From contig NC_136010.1 in NCBI RefSeq assembly GCF_048128805.1, forward strand, positions 24,754,980-24,818,979: a stretch of 64,000 bases of DNA. The letters run 5' to 3'. Shown one piece after another: positions 3,538 through 60,520 of the stretch (positions are counted from its first letter, which is position 1; each line of letters starts with the position of its first letter). Made by a program: the position numbers and the translations under genes. The notes below the pieces were generated by a model. That model had not been told where the DNA came from and searched no databases. It saw only the letters and a list, made by a program, of their open reading frames with translations. The DNA is from Centroberyx gerrardi (taxonomy: Eukaryota > Chordata > Actinopteri > Beryciformes > Berycidae).

Positions 3538-16513
<12,976 letters not shown>

Positions 16514-32555: not shown

Positions 32556-34958
32556 TTATACCTTGCTCCTGAAGAGGGGTTTAGCACCGGGGCCGCAGTA
32601 CTCATTGTAGATGAGCTTGAAGAGGAAAAGGTGGAACAGGGTGATCAGCGAGGCCACGCTGAACCAGAAGAGGAAGGGCAGACCCGGGTACCTGTTCGCC
32701 ATGTGCTCCTCGTGGGCCAGGATGGCCTTGAGGTGCAGCGTGTGGCGCAGGTCCTGCAGGTGGCGCAGGTCCGTGGAGATGTAAAGCAGTGGCGTGATGG
32801 GTTGTGTCACCATCACGGGGAAGGTGTGCCCTTTGACCTCGGACGTCAGCTCCACCGGCTCGTTGAGGCAGCCGGCCTCGCAGGCGTACAGCTGCACCGG
32901 CTTCTCCTGCGGCTTCACCGACACATGAAGGAAAGGCTTTCCCTCCACATCCAGCAGCACCGCCAAGTTAATGAGGTCCTGATTGTAGTGGATTCCTCTC
33001 AGCGCGTAGCTGTTGTGCAGCACGTCCGGATCGGCCTGGAACTGAAGGTGATTCTCGGTGAACTGAAGGCCGCCGAAGCTCAGCACCATGCCCTGCATGA
33101 CGCCGTGGGCTCCGGCCGCCACCAGGACCTTGCAGCCTCTCTTCTGGAGAGTCAGAGTCCACAGCGTGACGAGCTGGAGGATCTGCGCGGCGCTGCTGAC
33201 CCGCTCGGGCCACAGGTTCTCCGCGTGCATGGTGGCGTGGCCGCTGAAGCAATGGTCGGCATAGTTGAGGCTGGACTCCAGGTGGGCGTGCTCCTCACTG
33301 CTCAGCCTCCGGTCCAGCAGGGGAGCTGTGGAGGAGGAGAGGATGTAGTAGAGGGTGGTGTTCACTGTGTAGCTTGATGGGGTGTGGGAGTCGGTGATCT
33401 TCCTCATCTCCACACCTAGAAGAATAAAGAGAAAAGCCATGGTGAAAACAGATTTCTAGGAGCCTCTAGAACAGCTCTCATTAACAGCTTCTCATATTAA
33501 CCATTCTTTCACTCATTTTCTCTACCCACTTAATCCTTTTTAGTGTGGCAGGGGGCTGGAGCCTATCCCAGCATGCACAGGGAGGCAGGGAGACCCTGGA
33601 CAGGCCACGGCTCATATTAACCAAGGATAGGCTAAAGCAACAACTAAGACAGCACTAAAGATTTACTGTCTGTTCTGAAAGAAAAACAAAGAGCACTAAC
33701 TGTGTGAGTAGTGATAGTGAAAAAATGACTTCAAAGTGTAAATCACCTGTCCTGACAAATGTACTGCTGTTACAGAAGCAGAATATAATTTATGGGTATA
33801 ATTTTAGTTGGTATGAAATCTAAACCTTAATTATGACCTTTGACCTTTAAAACAAACAAAAAGTAGTTGCTGATGTTTTCATTTGGAGGGCAGAGTTACT
33901 GAATAACCATCACCTGCCAGTTAAATATCACACATCGCTTTATTGCAAAGAAGAGCGTAACGCTTGTCAAATGAAGGTGATCTGAGCTTTGACAACTCAC
34001 CAGAAATAAAGAGATCCATCCAAGCCTTCTGGTGATCCAGAACCAGTTCGTCCACGCTCGCCCTCAGCAACTCCCCAAGCTCCTTCTTGGCTCCGTCCCG
34101 CAGGGTGGCGAAGGTTTCCTCCAGCTTGGAGGGGTCGATGGGCTCCGAGGTCCACACCACCGACAGAACGTTGTCCGTGTAATCCGACTTGGCCAGGACC
34201 TGGATCCTACTGTTCAGTTTCTTGGTGGCCACCACCACCAACACAATACGATTGTTCTCCACGAGCACTCGGCCAGAGGAGAGCACGAACTCTCTGTCCT
34301 CCACTTTCTCCACACTGGCGGAGAACTTACTCCCGAACGAGGGAGTTTCAGAGGAAACTTCCAGCATGGCAATTCTGTCAGACGGGTTGTTGATGTGGAT
34401 TCGCTGCAGGTAGACGTTAGGCCGGCTGCGGTGGGCGATGAACTCCTCCCTGATGGTGACGCAGTCCCGGGCCGACTGCGAGGCGGCTGGTAAAACACAG
34501 CGGACCGAGAGCACGGACCCTTTGCGGAACCACAGCATGGTGGCCTGAGCCTCCACTCGCTTCCCTGGAAGATGGACACCCACTATCGGGGAGTATTCGG
34601 TCTGGTGGACCGGAGCTGAGCCAGGCTGGGAAGATGAAGCTACCCACAGTTTGTTAGAGTCAATGTCAACCAGGATATGGCCATTACCTGAAACAAAAGG
34701 TGTGTCTACCTTCTCCTGAGGTGTGCTGTAGACACCCTCTCCTCTGTCTACCAGAGACTTCCACCTGTAGATTTCAGCCTGTAGACACTGTCCAGCCACT
34801 CCCCCAGACATGACCGAGCCGCTGAAAAACCTCAGCCTGCGGTCTGCACCCAGGTACCAGTAGAAGATGAGGAAAAGCAACAGTCCTATGAGGAGTCTCC
34901 TCGCCCAACTGCTTGACAACAAGCCTGGTAGACCCTTTAGTCTTTGCTGCAGCCACAT
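32556..34958 (-). CDS. kiaa2013: KIAA2013 orthologue, DUF2152-family membrane protein (605 aa, 2 coding exons)
   Basis: Uncharacterised vertebrate transmembrane protein of the DUF2152 family. Exons 34958-34001 and 33415-32556; the donor is CTG|GTGAGT, the acceptor CTAG|GTGTGG, and the phase-1 junction rebuilds ...MDLFIS-GVEMRKITD.... I start at the ATG of MWLQQRLKGLPGLLSS, which matches the family N-terminus as I recall it; the frame is open further upstream but has no ATG. One membrane segment lies at about residues 21-38 (LLIGLLLFLIFYWYLG) and a second at about 566-588 (FLFWFSVASLITLFHLFLF) close to the C-terminus, so most of the protein is probably a lumenal/extracellular domain. Human KIAA2013 is ~634 aa. 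It is divergent from plod1, and molecular function is unknown. Confidence 0.93.
33508..33606 (+). repeat. Partial copy of the common fish repeat in the KIAA2013 intron
   Basis: CACTCATTTTCTCTACCCAC followed by GGGGGCTGGAGCCTATCCCA and GACCCTGGACAGG; same family as 6793-7055. Confidence 0.75.
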
Positions 34959-36192
34959 TTTGTATTTAAAATGAAGGAAGCTCAGCTTGGAATCGGTATC
35001 CAAAGACTTTACTGAGATGTTTTAAGTTGAAAATTTAACAAGTCAGGCGCATCGCTATCAAAACAACATAATGGAAAAGTTGCTAATCATGTTCGCCAGT
35101 AAGCTGTGTTGGATGAAAGCTGACAAACTGGCTTCGCTACTGGCTAAATTAGGTTAGCTAACGTTAGCTAGCGCCGTGAACGATATCGCTCGAAAATTTG
35201 CTCTTGTTTCTCACATCATGGCTGCTGTCACACTTTTCATTGCACGTACATGCCCGTCACCATTCGCTTGCTTCCATCGACTGTCACATCTCAGGTATTT
35301 TCAGGTTTTTGCCTTGTGGGAAAATCACTTGTTTCCAAACAACTCGGCAGCCGCTGACACTTCTGGTTTGCCACAACTGTCGTAAAGTAGTGCGGAAATG
35401 CAGTGACCGGAAATGTCGTGATGACAATTGAGTTGTTACGACCCAGTAAATGTAACGTTGGATTCATTTTCAGATTATAAATAAGAAAGATGATTATAGT
35501 GTGTCTTCTAACATAAATCACACTTTGCGTTGCGTAGTAGTTCGTTTGAAGCATATGATATGTGTTAATATGACATATTTAGTTTGATATAGCCACGACA
35601 CGATGTGAGACACATCTAATATTAATCAATGTACTTTATTCATACGGATAGAATCATAACAGCCTCTCTATGCTGGTGGTTGTATTCTTAAAATGCATTA
35701 CGATATGTAGATAGTCCGTGCCAGTGGTCAGGTAAACTACCCATAATAGATCTAGATCATTCTGTAACACCCAGTTTTTCTTTTCCTTTCTTGGAAGGGG
35801 GCGTTATGTAAATTGCATACAGACAGTTCATACCGCATGGAAAAAAATCAAATCCATTACATATGAACAGACAGATCATTATTCGAGTCTGTAGTCTACC
35901 TGGAACAGACTGCATTTTGGCAACTCATTTTGGGGGGGGGCAGAGAGAGGGGGGCAGAGAGAGGGAGGGAGGGAGGGAGGGAGGGAGAGAGCGGGGGGGG
36001 GGAGAGAGAGAGCAGGAGAGGGGGCGAGAGAGAGGGGGAGAGAGAGAGAGAGACGCAGATGGTACTGGTCTGGAAGAATCAACAAAGTCGGGCAAAGTTG
36101 TCTATCGGAATCTGCTGTAAAAGTGCACATACCGGTCTACATCAGACCAAACGCATTGAAGACTGGTGGAGGGATTTTACAACCAGGCAAAA
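34959..36192. promoter_or_regulatory. Bidirectional promoter interval, KIAA2013 / plod1
   Basis: 1.23 kb separates the two divergent start codons. It contains ETS-type cores (CGGAAAT at 35392, ACCGGAAAT at 35406-35414), a 12-bp palindrome GCTAACGTTAGC at 35157-35168, and a G-run plus GA/GGGA purine tract at 35931-36052 just before plod1. No TATA box is obvious. Which elements are used is inferred. Confidence 0.5.
35931..36052. repeat. Purine tract (G-run and GGGA/GA repeats) upstream of plod1
   Basis: About 120 bp of almost pure purine on the plus strand, including runs of 8-10 G; ends ~140 bp before the plod1 ATG. Confidence 0.9.
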
Positions 36193-48100: not shown

Positions 48101-51100
48101 ACCACAGACTTTTGAATGTGATACTGATAAATGGGGAAGAAAAATACTGATTTTCTGTTATATGTGCCAATAACTTACCAATGCATATGCTGACATTTAG
48201 TAATCTGTGAAAGGCTGATAGCTAAAATATTGGCCCACTAGTGTATCAGTGGAGCTTTAGTATGTACAGCTGGGAATGTAAAATTTCAGCAAATGTCAGC
48301 TTTAATATTTTATCTGTGGTGAACTCTCTCTCAGGGCGTCTTCATGTATGTGACCAACATGCACACCTTTGGTCGCATCCTGTCAACAGAAAACTACCAG
48401 ACCAGCCATCTTCATAACGACCTCTGGCAGATCTTTGAAAACCCAGTGGTGAGAACCAACATGCATTTTATCTTGTAAAGCACTTTGTAACTCTCTTTTA
48501 AAATTATTATTAGTAGAAGTAGTAGCAGTAGCAGTAGTATTGTTCATCACAGTACAAACCTCTTGTATTCAGTAACTGGTTTAAAAAGTTTGCCCAGAAT
48601 ACTTTTTAGACATGCTCTGTAACTACATGGTGTTTGTTTCCTTCAGGACTGGGAGGAGCGCTACATCCATGAGAATTACTCCCACATATTGAAAGGCAAG
48701 CTGATGGAAACTGTGAGTCGCAACACTAAACTTGAAGTCGACTGTTACTGTGCTCTGGGTCCATATGTAGTTAGGTGTTTGGATTTGCCAGACAGGTTCC
48801 TTGCTCATTTGTTGATGCATCACACTGATGTTTTAGAAAGAAAAGCCCATTCACAAAAATCATATGACAGACTTGAAAAGTAGTTAAAGGGTATATATTT
48901 GTAATATTATATATTTTTAAAGCATAACATTGGATGCTAATGAATGTTTGATATACCTTTTTGTCATATGGTGAAAGTCCTGGTGTGTGTTTTGTGTCTC
49001 CCAGCCTTGTCCCGATGTGTACTGGTTCCCAATCTTCAGCGATGTTGCTTGTAACCATATTGTCGAAGAAATGGAACACTTTGGAAAGTGGTCCGGTGGC
49101 GGTAATGTGGTACGTTTTCATTCTCTTTCAGCAAAACTGATTGCTGTGTTTGCTTGTGTTTGTTTCCCATAAAGATCCCCATGAAGTGAAAAATGGCTTT
49201 TGAGTCAGTTTTGTCAGTAAACAATCTAATTATATTGATCATATGATATCTTGAATCGTTTCTCTCAGGACAAAAGAATCCAAGGTGGCTATGAGAATGT
49301 CCCCACCATCGACATCCACATGAATCAAGTCGGCTATGAGAAAGAATGGCACAAACTCTTACTGGATTACATAGCGCCAATAACAGAGAAAATGTATCCT
49401 GGTTACTACACTAAGGTAAGATCTATGACTTCTCTGGGCGAGTGGGGGATTTCTTGCATTTTTCATTGACATAGATTTATAGTGTCAAGGTGTCGTATCC
49501 CTTCTGTAATACAGGGAAAAGGAATATGTTTAAAGTACAAGTTACTACTAGTACCATTATAATGTTCACTGCTGAGAACAGATTGGCTGCAAAACTGGTA
49601 CCCTGTCATTAACGTTCAGATGAGTTTTGTTTTCAGCCTGTTAACTCTGCCAAAACCACCATATAACTTTGGAAGTGTGTTTCGTTATGGCCTAGTTAAA
49701 AATTATTGCCCTGGTGAAAGTGGTGAAAGTCTGAATCCATGAGATTCCACTTGTTCCACAGTGTTGAGTGTTTCTCAACTTGGTAGATTGTTCTGACAGT
49801 GGGACTCACAGATGCACCAAAAAATATGGAAGAAAATGGAAGTGTGGAGAAAAATATATGTATTCCAGGACTGTGTAGTCACATATTAGTAAGGGGCATT
49901 TTTCTGGCATATTTTTGCTTTTATCAAGAAGTGGCTCTAATCATATCACTACAGAACAGTAATACACACATACGGTTTGTCATCAATTTGTTTTTGTCGC
50001 TTAATATACTATGTGAATGTCATTAATCACAAAAAATAACTGTCTTTGTTGAAAATGTAAAATCTGTACTGTAATTTAATGCTTCTTCATATCCATTTTG
50101 AGAGAATGGCACAACATTGAGTATTTGTGGCACATTCTTGACCCAAGTATGAGATGAGATGAAACTTAAATGATTCTCGTTGTGATTTCCATGTCTCATA
50201 CTAACATCTAAATAACAAATAAGTTGATTAATGTAATATATCACTTTGGTTGAATACTAGTAGAATAAGAAGGAAATTTTTCCTCCTGAAAAGTATGATC
50301 CAGGACACGGAATTAAATTTTATTACTTGGATCTAGTTTTCCCTGTTTGTGATTTGTTGGAGACTGATCATTCATAAACTCCTACAGATGAATGTGCACT
50401 ACAAAATGACCGCCCTCTGCCCAAGTGAAATATCATGTTAAAGTGGTAATCCGTGTAATTTTCTTCCCTAGCAAGAAAGAGGCAAAGACACACCACAAGG
50501 GGAAACATATTTTAGTGGAAACAAATTTTGACACAACACCTGGAAACAGCTGTGACACCAGGTGTTCAGAAGAGCAAATGTGAAAGCTTTCATGAACTGG
50601 CTATAGATTGAATCACTATTGTGTAATATCAATTGGCGATAAAGAGAAGCAAAACAGACAGCTGCTTATATAAATGTCACGGATTACTACTTTAAGTCCG
50701 TCTACCTTTCCTTGGCTCCTCTGCCTCTCCCCATGTGCCCTGCTGACCCCCCATGCCTTTTCTCATCAGTGTTCCTCTCCCCTGAACTTCGTGGTAAGGT
50801 ACAAGCCTGACGAGCAGCCCCTGCTCGCCCCTCACCACGATGCCTCCACATTCACTATTAACGTAGCTCTCAACAGCAAAGACGTTGACTACCAGGTAAA
50901 TGATGGTGACCTGGCAGGTACTAGAGGCTAGGGGGACATGATGCAGGTGACCCGTCCTTCTGTCTCTGCTTCTCTGCTCCGTCTGTGGGAGTGAATGCTG
51001 AACCAGGAGGCAGAGCTAATGCTTTTCTTTATTGAGCAGGAGTTCCAGGGGGCATCTGTGTACACTCTCTCTCTCTCTCTCTCTGGCCAGACTGGCAGTT

Positions 51101-53154
51101 TCTATGCGAAAGCTTGCATGACTCATTTCTGTCTGTCTGTTTGCAGGCTCAGTTTGAATTGGCCTTTGTAGTTAGGTATAAGCCTGATGAGCAGCCTTTT
51201 TTAAGGCCACACCATGACGCCTCCACATTCACTATAAACATTGCACTCAATGAAGGCGGCCTTGATTACCAGGTGAGTGTGTTTGAGAGTTGGTATTAAT
51301 GCTGCGTTCCATTCAAAGTCGGAAGTCACAAACTCCCAGGTTGCATTTCATAACTACAACCTCCTGCGTTCCACTGGTCCAGCTTGTAAAAAGCAGGGGA
51401 GAAACAAGGATGCAGATTTCCTAAGCCCAAAGTAAAATCCTGTTGCCCAGCAACAGCTAATGTTAGCTCACTAGTTAGCATAGGACATTAGCAACTGTAA
51501 GAGCAACTTCACATTTCAAATTTGTAAGTTTTACCATTTACCACACAGGTGTTTTGATAGATTTAAGGTCATGTGATGTTGAGAATGGAACTCAAGTGTG
51601 TTAAAAGTAATGCTGTGTAGCATTTCCAGTCTACGTCACCATGTTGATGTGACATCAGATAAGTGCATGTCAGGGTTGAGAAATCTTTCCATAGTTTAAT
51701 TCCAACTTGAAGGGCCTTTCCACTGCATTTGTCCTAGTAGGAAGTCAGTATTTCCGACTTTCCGACATCCCTGGAGTGCAGCCTAAGTCACTATAGGAAT
51801 CCAATTTCACCAGAGCTTGACGTTAATGCCTGAAGCCGATGGGTCATTCAGGCCTAATATAGTTGAAGGAAACCATTGTTCACAAAATGTTGGGCTTAAT
51901 TTGGGTTTGGGCTGAGAAGACTTTTACCCCTCAGGGTTGATTAAGGCTTGGACAGAAATTTTAGGGTTCAGATCAGACCAAGCTTTGAATTTTCAGGCCC
52001 AAGCTCTTAATTTAAATAGGTTCAGAGTAAGGACACAGAATACATATACCTGTGAATAATCAACCAATCAATCAATCGGTGTCCAGTGGGTAGCAAACCA
52101 ATGGGTAATGAAAACGCTATTAGTCAATTAGTCCAATGTTTAAGTTAAAATGCAATATAAGATCTAAATATAACTCTTGCAAAGCATTTTAACAATTCAG
52201 TAGTGCAGTATATACTTCAAATGTCATATTACAAAACTAATAATTCAATAGTCCATTAAATATAACAAGACACTTATTCAAATGCATTTGCCATAATATA
52301 TTTTCAAAAATACATCCGCAAAATACATGAAGATATAAATACGTCATAGGAGGTTGACTCCACCCACACAATGTTCCAGGCAGACCGAATTGAGCACACC
52401 CCTTAGGTATTTTTGGGATCAAAACTGACATAAGTATTCCTCAGATATACAGCAGTCTGAGAAGGCATGATATTGAAATCATAATCACATTATTTCAGCG
52501 TGGAATGCCTTCATATTCTTGGCATGCACATCTACATCCCTGGTGTTTTCAATACATCTTGAATGTTTGTTAGCATAACTTTGCATTGGAGTCATTTCCA
52601 TGTTTCTGATTCTATCTTCTTTGCATGCTTTAGAAACTTAATGCTAGGAGCCTTGTTTTTGTAGCTGCATCCATGTCATTGCCCTGCATCCTCAATACAT
52701 GGACAAAAGAATAGCTGTTATTTCTCAGTATTGGTCTATATTATCTGAATTGTGATAACTGCGAACAACTGCTGAACATTGTTACCAATATTTATAATTT
52801 CTAAAGCTGTAATACATTATCGTATATAGAAAGTACATTGTGTTACAAGGATTTCCGACTATTAAAGCTAATATTCAGATGTATTTGAATATCAGATGCA
52901 CAAAAAAAAAATGAAAACGGTTATAACGAACATGATCTCTGGTATTTCAGCTTGATTTTGTGTCATCATGACGTCTGACAGTTGTGTTGTGACTGCAGGG
53001 CGGCGGATGCAGGTTCCTTCGCTACAACTGCTCCGTTGAGGCTCCTCGTAAAGGCTGGGCCCTCATGCACCCCGGCCGCCTCACCCACTACCACGAGGGC
53101 CTGCCCACCACCGCCGGCGTCAGATACATCGCAGTTTCATTCGTGGATCCCTGA
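36193..53154 (+). CDS. plod1: Procollagen-lysine 2-oxoglutarate 5-dioxygenase 1 (lysyl hydroxylase 1), 732 aa
   Basis: ER-lumenal enzyme that hydroxylates collagen lysines using Fe(II), 2-oxoglutarate, O2 and ascorbate. Exons: 36193-36283, 38078-38169, 38332-38465, 39165-39328, 39864-39976, 40153-40216, 43223-43320, 43609-43710, 44270-44401, 45790-45911, 46266-46370, 46565-46690, 47102-47243, 48335-48448, 48647-48712, 49005-49109, 49269-49415, 51147-51272 (or 50770-50895), 52999-53154 (TGA). This gives 2199 nt, 732 aa, 19 exons; human PLOD1 is 727 aa with 19 exons. Residues 1-23 are a signal peptide. The N-terminal glycosyltransferase-like domain has DSYD at 105-108. The C-terminal 2OG-Fe domain has H661-x-D663 and H713 as iron ligands and R723 for 2-oxoglutarate. 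The C-terminus is [11 protein letters not shown] favour PLOD1 over PLOD2/3 from exon 18b ([17 protein letters not shown]) and the KIAA2013 neighbour. Confidence 0.95.
36284..38077. other. plod1 intron 1
   Basis: 1.8 kb of AT-rich DNA after the signal-peptide exon. No repeat or additional exon is recognised. Confidence 0.5.
41419..42668. mobile_element. MITE family B inserted in family A (middle element)
   Basis: Termini TTAGGGTGCGATCACACC and GGTGTGAACGCACCCTAA, inverted with one mismatch. The flanking dinucleotide is AT on both sides (41417-41418, 42669-42670), fitting a 2-bp duplication as in ISL2EU-type elements. About 627 bp without the inner insert. Confidence 0.8.
41625..42243. mobile_element. 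MITE family C inserted in family B (innermost element)
   Basis: 619 bp flanked by TTAA (41621-41624 and 42244-42247). Long inverted repeats of ~75 bp start at AAGGCCGGTGTTTTTTAATG and contain few mismatches. The TTAA target suggests a piggyBac/Kolobok-type origin. No transposase ORF is present. Confidence 0.85.
46722..46868. repeat. Interspersed repeat, copy 2 (copy 1 at 5158-5390)
   Basis: TAAAGGGGCATTAAGTGATC through CGTCTAGTGAAGAGGTAATA, in the same orientation as copy 1 and internally deleted; in plod1 intron 12. Confidence 0.75.
50442..50691. mobile_element. TTAA-flanked MITE 75 bp upstream of plod1 exon 18a
   Basis: Termini AGTGGTAATCCGTG and CACGGATTACTACT (one mismatch), flanked by TTAA at 50438-50441 and 50692-50695. 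The internal sequence (GTGATTCA...CAGTTCATGAAAGCTTT in inverse) is shared with a partial copy at ~13498-13610 in ecm2 intron 3. Confidence 0.8.
50770..50895 (+). CDS. plod1: plod1 alternative exon 18a (duplicate of catalytic exon)
   Basis: 126 nt, phase 0 at both ends, acceptor CTCATCAG|TGT, donor CAG|GTAAAT. Encodes 42 aa including [11 protein letters not shown] and [15 protein letters not shown], so the HxD iron ligands are preserved. It is 30/42 identical to exon 18b downstream. The differences sit at the first six residues (CSSPLN versus AQFELA), just before the ligands (LLA versus FLR) and in the loop after NxALN (SKDV versus EGGL). The LNFVVRY...NVALN flavour is closer to PLOD2/PLOD3 than to PLOD1. 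It has no stop codon and is apparently functional. Confidence 0.85.
51147..51272 (+). CDS. plod1: plod1 canonical exon 18b
   Basis: 126 nt, phase 0/0, acceptor TTTGCAG|GCT, donor CAG|GTGAGT. Encodes [17 protein letters not shown]... with [19 protein letters not shown], the PLOD1-type version. It follows exon 18a after an intron of only 251 bp. Confidence 0.92.
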
Positions 53155-54925: not shown

Positions 54926-57836
54926 TCAGACTCCCAGAGAGGTCAAAGATCCAGAGCTGCCGATCTTCTTCAGTCTGTTGGCTGCTGTTATTGCAATGTA
55001 GTTTTTCTGGCAAAAACAAACAAACCAAATAAGATCCTCACAGCATGTAGCTATGTTAACATCTCAAGTATTTACAGTATTTAACATTTATCTTGGTACA
55101 GGATGTCAATAGAGATGTTAATTGTGTTAATTGTGTGTATCTGTTAGTGATGCACTGCCGGACCACCAAATCTGATTCAAATCCATTGCTTTTTCTGAAC
55201 AATATACAGTTACACCAAGTGCTTAAAGTCGAGATGAAACGGCATTTCGAGAGTATCTAACTTCCGTATCGTGACGTATTTCCGAGTGAAACAGGAAAGA
55301 CAGGCGGGACATAACGTTGGGAGGAATTTGATTTGAACGTTGAAAAGTGGGTGTGTCATAACACCCGAAGACACACCGAAGTGCCGTGCTGTTGCTAGCT
55401 AGCTAACTAATGAATCTTAGCCTCTTAGCTCTGTGCGCTAAAAGTTGAAGATTGATTGATGGGTGGATGTCATGATATTATTGGTTGAAATTAGTTACGG
55501 GCATGCTTACGTAAGCACACGGCATATTTTGTTTTACAGGAAGAAAACATGATTGAATTTTGATATAAGAATACAATGAAATTGATTTTTGGTATTTTTT
55601 TTGGCATATATTGTTAAATAGGTGCACAGTATGACCGGGGATGTGATCTAAAAGGGTTAAAAGGGCATTTTTCATTTCATCTCGTCTTTAAGGTCAATGG
55701 GCAAATATGAGACATCTTTCTAGGCTGCAGCTTCCAAGTCTCTGCTTAAAGAAGATGGAACTAAACAGTGCTTTATCCCCATGCTCACATCAAGACTGAA
55801 CAACCATGCTGTTCAGCTCATGTTACTCAAAGCCCTTAGTACTAGTGAATTTTAATAGGCTTAAAGGGTGCAAACTGACCTTCCATAGCCTCTTGGCCAT
55901 GTATTTCTTCAGCAACACCTGGGACTTGAGCACTATGTTGTTATGCTTCGCCTTCTCTGAAATGTTGTTGAGCCACGGGTGTCTGAGGCACTGGGCAGCG
56001 CTCAGCCGGCCTCTGGACACAGCGGGGAGAGGGGGGATGAAAGACAGAAAAACAAAGTGGAATAGGCAATGAACGATTCCTATTCTCACACTTGCCTATG
56101 CCTGTATCATCTAAAGGTATGGTTATTTTGGAATCCTGGTCATTCTCAAATAGGGGATGAAAGTTCCTTGTCTCTTACCCCCTCTCTCTGATCAGCAGGT
56201 TGGCGATGAAGTCTCTTGCTTCAGCTGAAACATGCTCGAAGGCTTCCTCGTCGAAGTACCAGTTGACGGCCAGCACGTTATTGAGCGTCTGGCTGTCGTC
56301 GTCACCCAGGAAGGGCGACATTCCGCTCACGCTGCACCGTACCAACACACACACACACTCATTCAAGCTTATTTTTTTAACCCTTAACATTCTCTAAGGC
56401 GTGACAACCGGTTTCCTCTACTTTATGGCTACTTTGGATGGTAGTGAATATCAACTAACACGGAAAATGATGCGGTAAAACCCTTTAAACTCCTGCGTCT
56501 TTAGTTTGGGAAAGACTGTCACTTCTTATGGACTTACAGCATGTAAGTGACGACACCAAGAGTCCACATGTCTGTGGGGAAGGAGACGGAGTCAAAGTTC
56601 ACCACCTCAGGAGCCAGAAACTCCGGAGTCCCGAAGTTCACCTGCAGCTTCTCCCGCGGTCTGTATCTGTTCAGCAACACAACATCAAAATGACCTGAGA
56701 TTCACACATTTTACATGTTAGACGTCTAGCCAGATCTCATCTAGAGCAACTTGTGATGAGGTCAACAGTAGAATAGGCTTCGGTTGCTAAATTGCCAACA
56801 TTACAAGCAACCAGTAGTAAGGAGGTGAAGGGTCAGATGTCACTGCACCCAAACAATACATGGAACAAATATTCCTGTGAGTCTAGAATGACAGATGATA
56901 GAGAAGTATCTTACCTTCTGGCCAGTCCAAAATCAATAATCTTCACCTGGTGACTGGTGCGATTCACACAAAGGATATTCTCTGGCTAGACATCAGGGAA
57001 GAATGCAAACCAAATTGAAAACAGTCTTAATATTGTGTATCGGACCAAAATGTAGTACACTATTTCTAATAAGGAAAATCACTGTCATGAAGTGTGTGAG
57101 AGAGACGAAGTAAGAGACAGTCTGAGGGAGAGAATATGTATATAGAAAGGTTTACAAAATCAAAATTCCGCAATAACAAGACCAAATACCAAAAGCCATA
57201 ATTAAGTGGTTTTCTGCTTTTTTCATACATACAAGGATATTATGCAAGGATTATATCTCACTCATATTTGTCTAATGTTCCCAAACTAATGGTCCAACAT
57301 GTTAAACAACTGCAATGGATTGTTGACCGATACTGAGAGTTTAGTAGTTGCAATCAGTATGTCAGTGATAAAGTGGGTTGGCTGCATCTCTATGGAACTA
57401 AATTTCACTCTAAAGTATTCTAAGTATACTCAGAAGTATTGTAACTGAGAGACAATGATCGTAACTGTATTTACATGTATTTTAAATGAAAGAGAACAGG
57501 CTGTGAGTGTTTGCATACATTATTGGCAGATTTGAATTCCTTTTATTTTCGTCTCAACAAGTGTGTGTAAGTTGTATGCTCATGTAAACACCAGGTTGTT
57601 TTCTGTCAGTTACAATACGTCTGAGTACAGTTACAGTACTTTAGAGTGAAGTGTAGCTCCGTACCGTGTGTGTGTGTGTGGTGCTGTCTGACCTTCAGGT
57701 CCAGGTGCAGCACGTACATCTGGTGCATGTAGTGGAGGCCTTCGCAGATCTGCTTCACAAACACCATGGCGTCCACCTCCGTCAGCGGAGCGCTCTCATC
57801 CACAATCCTGTCGAACAGCTCGCCTCCCTCCACGCT

Positions 57837-57878
<42 letters not shown>

Positions 57879-60520
57879 TGTACGGCATCCAGGAGAAGGC
57901 TTTATGCATCTCCTGTGGTTGTATTTATTCAAATCTATGTGTCAACGCTCCTCACTCCTCTCTATTTTAAATTTACTTGTATGTGCGTCACATCCAGTCT
58001 ATGTGAAATCCTATTCAAAGTAGAAGAGAGAGCAATAGAGCAGTAGAGCTGAGCAGAGTAAAGTAGAACAGAGTAGAGTACAGTGCAGTACAGTGTAACA
58101 GTGCAGTAGAAGAGAATAGAGAATAGTACAGTAGAGCAGAGTAGAAAGGAACAGATTAGAGTAGAACAGAGTAGAGTAGAGCAAAACAGAATAGAGTAGA
58201 ATAGACCATAGTACAGTAGAACAGAGCAGAATGGAGTAGAAAAGAACAGAATAGAGTACAGTAGAACAGAGTAGAGTTGAGTATATCAGACTAGAGTACA
58301 GCAGAACAGAGTAGAGTAGAATGAAATACAGTTGAACAGATCAGAGGATAACAGAACGGAGTAGAATACAGTAGAGTACAGTAGAACAGAGTAGAGTTTA
58401 GTAAAACAGAGTACAGTAGAACAGAGTAGAGTTTAGTAAAACAGAGTAGAGTAGAAGAGTAGAGTTTAGTAAAACAGAGTAGAGTAGAAGAGTAGAGTTT
58501 AGTAAAACAAAGTAGAGTAGAAGAGTAGAGTTTAGTAAAACAGAGTAGAGTAGAAGAGTAGAGTTTAGTAAAACAAAGTAGAGTAGAACAGTAGAGTTTA
58601 GTAAAACAGAGTAGAGTAGAAGAGTAGAGTTTAGTAAAACAGAGTAGAGTAGAACAGTAGAGTTTAGTAAAACAGAGTACAGTAGAACAGAGTAGAGTTT
58701 AGTAAAACAGAGTAGAGTAGAACAGTAGAGTTTAGTAAAACAGAGTAGAGTAGAAGAGTAGAGTTTAGTAAAACAAAGTAGAGTAGAACAGTAGAGTTTA
58801 GTAAAACAGAGTAGAGTAGAAGAGTAGAGTTTAGTAAAACAGAGTAGAGTAGAACAGTAGAGTTTAGTAAAACAGAGTAGAGTAGAAGAGTAGAGTTTAG
58901 TAAAACAGAGTAGAGTAGAAGAGTAGAGTTTAGTAAAACAGAGTAGAGTAGAAGAGTAGAGTTTAGTAAAACAGAGTAGAGTAGAACAGTAGAGTTTAGT
59001 AAAACAGAGTAGAGTAGAAGAGTAGAGTTTAGTAAAACAGTAGAGTAGAACAGTAGAGTTTAGTAAAACAGAGTAGAGTAGAAGAGTAGAGTTTAGTAAA
59101 ACAGAGTAGAGTAGAACAGTAGAGTTTAGTAAAACAGAGTACAGTAGAACAGAGTAGAGTTTAGTAAAACAGAGTAGAGTAGAACAGTAGAGTTTAGTAA
59201 AACAGAGTACAGTAGAACAGAGTAGAGTTTAGTAAAACAGAGTAGAGTAGAACAGTAGAGTTTAGTAAAACAGAGTAGAGTAGAAGAGTAGAGTTTAGTA
59301 AAACAGAGTAGAGTAGAACAGAGTAGAGTTTAGTAAAACAGAGTAGAGTAGAACAGTAGAGTTTAGTAAAACACAGTAGAGTAGAACAGAGTAGAGTTCA
59401 TACTATTCCAGGATCAGCACCACTTGGGTCCTGGTCTCGAAGGCGTCGTACAGCTGCAGGATGTTAGCATGACTCAGCTGGTTCATCACCTGCACCTCAT
59501 TCAACGCCATCTCCTGACACACACACACACACACACACAGAGTGCCTTTAAATCTCCTGCTTATTTTAATTTTTTCTTATTCCCAGTAAATTTGTGCTCT
59601 CTCTCTCTCTCTCTCTCTCACTTTTTCCTTGCCGTTGCGAGTGTTGATGATCTTGGCCGCCAGCCTCAGTCCAGATGATCTCTCTGTGCAGCCATGCACC
59701 TTCCCAAAGCGCCCACTGGAGGAAACACACAGAAAACACTTGATCCACACACACCGCTGCTCTCCTGCTCATGCATTCACTAAATGAATGAATGGATGGA
59801 TGAATGGATTGGGGGGGGGGACTGGGATCACGGGCCTCACCCTCCCAGGACGTCCTGGTGGATGATGAAGGTGTCGGAGGCCGAGGAGTAACAAAGAGAA
59901 ACACTCCGATGGAGGAATGGAGCTGGCTGGGGAGGAACATCATCTGGCGGGGGGGGGGGCATAATTCAGTATTAATTAAAGGTATAAAACAGCCTAAAAA
60001 GTTGAGTATTTTCTTGACTGATGCTGAATATGGGTGGAGGCAAAACTATTTACAAATATAAGTGATTTTGATCTTAACTTTTAAAGGGATAGTTTGGTTT
60101 TGGGTAATTTGGAAGTCTAGGGGGTCAATTTTTTTTTTATGTGTATTTTCAATTCGCCTCTTGTAGAAGTGAGGTCCAAAATGAACTAAATTTACAAAAA
60201 TCTCCTCATTCTGAAGGTCTAAAACTCTCAACTGGTTGTCACAAGGATACAAGTAGAACACACACACACACACACGCTCTCTCTCTGTCCATGTCCTCTT
60301 ACCGATGACTTTGTGGCAGATTTGTGGCAATGAGGTGCTTCTGGTTGTGTCGGACGTAGCGGAGACCACTCGGATCTGGATCCCGCATTCTGGACCAGGA
60401 CCAAGGGTTGAACCCCTCACAGCGGCGCAGCCTGGATCCGCCGGCCCCGAGCCCTGCAGCCTGCAACCACAGTCCATATCAACAGTTATAAGATATTCAC
60501 CATTTGGAAAGATTACTTAC

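Follow-up and report, generated by a model that had tools for sequence, protein, structure and literature searches.

Two intact versions of the iron-binding exon, placed in tandem, in a fish plod1 gene

How collagen is cross-linked depends on the choice of lysines for hydroxylation and, in the literature covered here (in part as selected passages), exon 13A of PLOD2 is the sole splice switch of the lysyl hydroxylase family that has been tied to substrate choice. The locus described here raises the question of what a plod1 gene (encoding lysyl hydroxylase 1, LH1) does with two successive copies, 18a and 18b, of the exon that encodes its iron-binding core. The DNA itself shows a pair of intact exons under selection, each with plausible splice sites; from these we infer their expression, their mutual exclusivity, a regulating factor and a biochemical effect of the swap. 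We regard it as very likely that the pair originated by an old tandem exon duplication within plod1, that both copies have been kept by selection, and that they are used as alternatives, with 18b as the default.

The window, that is, the whole stretch of 64,000 nucleotides that was analysed, lies on contig C14 of a genome of 779 Mb in 278 contigs, all of which was searched. In protein comparisons (blastp), 13 upstream plod1 exon blocks are followed in order by 18a, 18b and exon 19 (Table 1), and the 13 upstream blocks are matched, also in order, by reading frames of a gene on contig C22. A stretch of contig C23 matched exons 17, 18a, 18b and 19 and one intron stretch only. We take these two genes to be plod2 and plod3, respectively, and the exon numbers used here are presumed to follow those of the 19-exon human gene. 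The plod1 gene is distinct from both of these further lysyl hydroxylase genes, each of which holds one copy of exon 18. Only one plod1 exon was matched at two places in tandem, namely the pair 18a/18b; another second match, at 49003-49122, corresponds to the same exon in another frame. Upstream of plod1, two large reading frames lie on the opposite strand (Table 1); the DUF2152 match of the larger one agrees with the plod1 assignment, and we take KIAA2013 adjoining PLOD1 to be the vertebrate gene order.

Table 1. Features of the plod1 locus, in positions of the window
Feature	Position	Strand	Basis
Two large reading frames	32556-35021	-	larger frame: 304 bits to DUF2152
plod1 (lysyl hydroxylase 1) gene	~39.86 kb or before to 53154	+	matches to plod2/plod3 frames
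plod1 exon 17, constant and upstream of the pair, 49 codons; donor AAG/GTAAGA	49269..49415	+	blastp to plod2/plod3 frames, splice sites
plod1 exon 18a, 42 codons, phase 0/0, P-H-H-D, ligands His/Asp at exon positions 22/24	50770..50895	+	
Intron between 18a and 18b, 251 nt	50896..51146	+	
CT tract, PTB-like; may be a plain microsatellite	51065..51084	+	
TGCATG, RBFOX-type site	51115..51120	+	motif scan
plod1 exon 18b, 42 codons, phase 0/0, donor CAG/GTGAGT	51147..51272	+	
plod1 exon 19 with stop codon, remainder of the catalytic domain	52999..53154	+	

The preliminary description of this DNA had reported a duplicated catalytic exon, and its structural claims hold. Two 126-nt exons lie head to tail at the coordinates given there, in phase 0/0 and with AG/GT borders; both are open across 42 codons, without stops; their proteins are identical at 30 of 42 residues (71%); the HxD iron ligands (His22 and Asp24) are intact in both copies; and the flanking junctions fall where they had been placed, at the end of exon 17 (49415) and the start of exon 19 (52999). 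The many synonymous differences claimed were also found (19.2 over 27.7 sites, with 22.8 nonsynonymous differences over 98.3 sites). In plod3 and plod2, where this exon is single, its borders and its length of 126 nt are the same. Being adjacent, of the same length and phase, and 251 nt apart, 18a and 18b are tandem homologous exons.

When 18a was used as a query against the 779-Mb genome, 18b was recovered with E values of 3.3e-10 (DNA) and 6.0e-14 (protein), a resemblance beyond what chance would give. The clear DNA homology between the two copies runs from nucleotide 18 of the exon to 7 nt past its end, which fits an old duplication. In protein searches of the genome with E values up to 10, 18b gave four matches (two in plod1, one each in plod3 and plod2) and 18a gave five, the same genes plus a weak match on contig C12 (6083169-6083267, minus strand; 45% over 33 amino acids, E 0.65) located in a 228-codon open frame. 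As to the catalytic residues, His667 and Asp669 of human LH3 are presumed to be the first two iron ligands. The exon 18 segment corresponds to residues 646-687 of this protein, with P-H-H-D at 666-669 in PDB chain 8zgc. In the Pfam comparison, 18a scores 17.3 bits, under the curated cut-off of 23, and 18b scores 27.3.

That both exons are under purifying selection had been proposed together with a check, dN/dS between the two copies, and this check bears the proposal out (dS 1.93, dN 0.278, dN/dS 0.14), with codon bootstrap intervals that lie apart (pS 0.47-0.92, pN 0.12-0.35). Constraint is not uniform, since in the last seven codons alone pN (0.43) is about equal to pS (0.41), so that selection there appears to be either weak or diversifying. 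The pS of 0.69 between 18a and 18b falls within the range of 0.53-0.87 obtained among plod1 (with 18a or 18b), plod2 and plod3 over exons 17-19, and the pair is therefore dated as old and nothing finer; its dS of about 1.9 is near saturation. Exon 18a keeps 22 of the 24 columns that are invariant in 18b, plod2 and plod3, and all 17 that stay invariant once human LH3 and mimivirus L230 are added. Its two departures occur in relatives: Ala at position 20 (before P-H-H-D) in L230 and Val at position 32 in LH3. The first four residues of 18a are wholly unlike those of 18b, with states absent from all the relatives compared.

A control pair was sought in the same genome with PF00224, whose 18 matches fall in three pyruvate kinase-like genes; one stretch of each was searched. 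Tandem similar frames were found in one of the three, on contig C1 (57 residues, 68% identical, 0.8 kb apart), together with one weak 17-residue match; we take the 57-residue pair to be the M1/M2 exons of PKM. This control, a single pair picked because it is well known and compared as matching frames instead of delimited exons, shows 66.7% nucleotide identity, dS 1.68, dN 0.260 and a median pN/pS of 0.33, beside 66.7%, 1.93, 0.278 and 0.33 for the plod1 pair. Given these near-identical values, the plod1 pair has the numbers of an established pair of this kind. PKM and plod1 are thus alike in holding tandem homologous exons of an enzyme at nearly the same divergence in the same genome; however, the M1/M2 exons affect regulation and assembly, while the plod1 exons belong to the catalytic core.

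Good splice sites had been claimed for both copies. Scores were computed with vertebrate splice-site matrices, and for some blocks the top-scoring site may not be the one used. On this scale, 18a (donor 8.8, acceptor 8.7) lies inside the range of the top sites near the 13 upstream plod1 blocks (donors 2.8-10.8, acceptors 5.4-16.1), in agreement with the claim; 18b scores 12.5 and 9.3, and the acceptor of exon 19 scores 4.7. The donor of 18b is the highest of those scored, and that of 18a (GTAAAT) lacks the G at +5. Both copies look spliceable, 18b being the stronger. Primers given for qPCR of zebrafish plod1a in the available passages of a 2026 report (PMC13322528) point in the same direction: in frame, they read R-P-H-H-D-A and D-F-Q/G-G-G. 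The forward primer agrees with 18b in 17 of 20 positions and with 18a in 13 of 20, and the reverse primer does not discriminate (14/20 for 18b and 15/20 for 18a). The zebrafish transcript from which these primers were designed seems to run into exon 19 from an exon of the 18b type, with R ahead of P-H-H-D, and is silent on a zebrafish 18a. Plod1a protein is reported from zebrafish fin regenerates (PMC6787175). The stronger donor, the slightly stronger acceptor and the type of the zebrafish primer are the reasons why 18b is taken as the default.

Mutually exclusive use of 18a and 18b is likely from the sequence, and the means by which it could be imposed were sought in the introns. In OGDH, exons 4a and 4b are mutually exclusive enzyme exons from an ancient exon duplication, and in human their exclusion is enforced by distant branch points, which lie at 25-41 nt from the donor, as described in the available passages of PMC7969005. 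No convincing counterpart of this device was seen in plod1. A consensus scan of the full 251-nt intron gave no support for exclusion by a distant branch point, at less than ~50 nt from the first donor: the branch-site candidates of 18b are CTCAT at -22 and ATGAC at -26 (230 and 226 nt beyond the 18a donor). Measured from this donor, further candidates lie at 124 and 136 nt, and a weaker pair at 14 and 55 nt. The candidate at 14 nt is an unlikely branch point, since 17 AGs intervene between it and the acceptor AG of 18b. A U2/U12 mismatch is likewise without support, as both donors (GTAAAT and GTGAGT) look U2-type when set against the U12 consensus. Eight imperfect inverted repeats were found in 49416-53000, and in none of them did we see a docking arm for which two partners, next to 18a and next to 18b, would compete. 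With candidates at -22/-26, nothing mechanical seems to block the joining of 18a to 18b, and every combination of the two exons keeps the reading frame. The lack of crowding, the U2-type donors and the frame that is always kept indicate that, if use of the two exons is exclusive, the choice should be regulated.

Two elements of the middle intron are candidates for such a switch, although unproven. The TGCATG of Table 1 begins 220 nt after the 18a donor and lies directly before the candidate branch sites of 18b at -26/-22; it is seen once, with 0.08 expected. The 20-nt CT tract contains eight overlapping CTCTCT, again with 0.08 expected. These expectations come from mononucleotide shuffles, ten short patterns having been tried. 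TGCATG is also present at 51664 and 52622, in the intron after 18b (two observed, 0.29 expected), and the two outer introns are somewhat rich in YCAY-type motifs (31 vs 18.6 and 33 vs 25.2); TCTT, of PTB type, shows no excess in the middle intron (1 vs 1.68). TGCATG is presumably read by proteins of the RBFOX family, and CT tracts by PTB-type proteins.

According to these elements, it can be proposed that 18b is included by default and that 18a would be taken instead in some cells, where an RBFOX-family protein bound to the TGCATG at 51115 would cover the branch region of 18b and, from its position downstream of 18a, would promote use of that exon; the CT tract may contribute by binding a repressor of PTB type. 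With either exon, the double-stranded beta-helix domain would be complete and its iron ligands unchanged. The copies differ at 12 exon positions, namely 1-4 and 6, 18 and 20 just ahead of the ligands, 32 and the stretch 36-39, with positions 22 and 24 kept, so that the two enzymes would be unlike in peptide preference or activity, not in chemistry. A functional swap near the ligands is therefore plausible on the predicted proteins, and by analogy with the prolyl 4-hydroxylases altered substrate handling would be its likeliest effect.

Other readings of the pair have to be weighed against alternative use. One of them, which we consider improbable, is that 18a is a retired exon, formerly coding and now skipped everywhere, whose death is too recent for decay to be seen. 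The donor without a G at +5 and the four initial residues that match no relative compared would fit such an exon, but it still has its open frame, its splice dinucleotides, its ligands and every one of the 17 columns that are invariant across the family. Neutral evolution was simulated from 18b, with 20,000 runs per distance. At 0.05, 0.1 and 0.15 substitutions per site, the 22 kept columns plus the open frame survived in 7.8%, 0.5% and 0.06% of the runs, respectively, and at 0.2 or more in none. Relaxed evolution of 18a beyond ~0.1 substitutions per site is thus very unlikely: taken with the kept columns, the simulation indicates that 18a has been constrained for nearly its whole history, and that very recent disuse is possible. 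Strong acceleration is not seen either, given that the six of 12 differing sites that plod2 and plod3 polarise changed four times in 18a and twice in 18b. It is also unlikely, to a similar degree or slightly more so, that 18a and 18b are independent cassettes, and that proteins with both segments (42 residues longer) or with neither are produced in real amounts. Such use is favoured by the fact that all combinations are in frame, and by the introns, which offer neither a convincing distant branch point nor a U12-type donor; nevertheless, the fold would be expected to break if the beta-helix received a further HxD segment or lost the one it has, and the available passages of PMC9741552 describe mutual exclusion for the 236 homologous exon substitutions of human.

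An artefact of assembly or gene conversion, or an insertion from plod2 or plod3, is hardly credible. At 66.7% nucleotide identity, 18a and 18b are not a doubled read, and the pair occupies its normal place between plod1 exons 17 and 19. Residues 6 and 37 of 18a are common to plod2 and plod3, and residue 38 to plod2, which could be read as a trace of insertion, but 18a is equally far from plod3 (67.5%), plod2 (65.1%) and 18b. Exon trees, built from four DNA sequences or six peptides and for which the program warned of too few replicates, are compatible with a grouping of 18a with plod2 and plod3 without deciding for it. With DNA, (18a,18b) was best and both rivals stayed acceptable, with p-AU values of 0.21-0.22 on all positions and of 0.12 and 0.29 on codon positions 1+2. 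With peptides, 18a with plod2, plod3 and LH3 was best, and neither 18a with 18b (p-AU 0.32) nor 18b with plod2, plod3 and LH3 (0.31) was rejected. The sole rejected tree of the four peptide trees joins 18a to plod3 and LH3, and 18b to plod2 (p-AU 0.024).

The same comparisons bear on a further claim, that the 18a version resembles PLOD2/3 and the 18b version PLOD1, which does not stand over the whole exon. Out of 42 residues, 18a and 18b share 29 and 32 with plod3, 25 and 24 with plod2, and 28 and 29 with human LH3, respectively. At single positions where the copies differ, 18a has the residue of both plod2 and plod3 at 6 and 37, that of plod2 alone at 38, and that of LH3, not fish plod3, at 32. 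Residue 6, which is Asn in 18a, plod2, plod3 and LH3, was considered as an argument for great age and given little weight because L230 shares the Ala of 18b. Scans for relatives gave no confirmed ones, either in a collection of genome contigs (32 stretches with the exon alignment and 508 with exon 19) or in a collection of viral contigs (32 stretches).

The closest known systems are those of the prolyl 4-hydroxylases. P4HA1, with homologous exons 9 and 10 (the number 9 being presumed), and P4HA2, with exon 12b, encode, like plod1, collagen hydroxylases of the 2-oxoglutarate/iron beta-helix class. There, the splice choice changes loops near the active site (a hairpin loop in P4HA1, and in P4HA2 the betaII-betaIII loop, which changes in both sequence and length), as stated in the available passages of PMC9676403, whose reference list includes a 1994 title with the words 'two homologous exons'. 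These genes belong to another family and, as far as those passages describe them, their swap alters substrate loops, whereas the exon swapped in plod1 carries two of the three iron ligands; it is this content of two metal ligands that sets the plod1 pair apart. Within the lysyl hydroxylases, exon 13A of PLOD2 (the LH2 long form) has been tied, through its alternative splicing, to telopeptide lysine hydroxylation in the passages available of PMC13322528. It resembles the plod1 pair in being a case of alternative splicing in a lysyl hydroxylase, but it is an extra 63-nt exon, in or out, in another gene, and not a swap of homologous exons. A PLOD1 exon is skipped in a TDP-43-dependent manner in mouse mutants and human cells (PMC5983119, available in part); that case is the loss of an exon, in contrast to the homologous pair 18a/18b.

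The pair was not found reported in the portions covered of the open-licence literature on plod or lysyl hydroxylase splicing and on homologous exons, with supplements outside this scope. The passages on plod1 seen in PMC13322528, PMC7538616, PMC7352703, PMC5983119, PMC5450241, PMC6787175 and PMC11761190 do not contain it, and the string 'plod' has no occurrence in the main texts of PMC9741552, PMC5740500 and PMC12159805. The plod1 pair is probably a new member of the tandem homologous exons, close to that of P4HA1. If alternative use is true, a swap of the iron-binding exon of LH1 would yield two catalytic cores from one gene, beside the exon pairs of the prolyl 4-hydroxylases. A bolder extension, possible but doubtful, is that 18a represents an ancient second catalytic core of LH1, at least as old as the teleost-tetrapod split and lost in mammals, so that fish would hold two LH1 enzymes of differing choice of collagen lysines under an RBFOX/PTB-type switch, comparable to exon 13A of LH2.

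Some minor observations concern the surroundings of these exons. In the intron after 18b, window positions 51482-51598 match a frame elsewhere in the plod3 stretch (59% over 39 amino acids), probably as a shared interspersed repeat. The intron directly upstream of 18a contains a 24-nt inverted repeat, 88% complementary (50438-50461/50672-50695), whose arms may derive from the termini of an old mobile element. The introns of plod3 (C23:404700-407816, minus strand) are full of CA/CT-type simple repeats, and a 544-codon open frame around the plod3 exon is mostly repeat read-through and not a retrogene. Downstream of plod1, a protein kinase domain fragment is found on the minus strand (57606-57941), adjoined by long repetitive frames at 58291-59228. 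Upstream, also on the minus strand, leucine-rich repeats and a VWC domain are encoded at 6826-7443 and 15380-15829, in frames that we presume to belong possibly to an ECM2-like gene.
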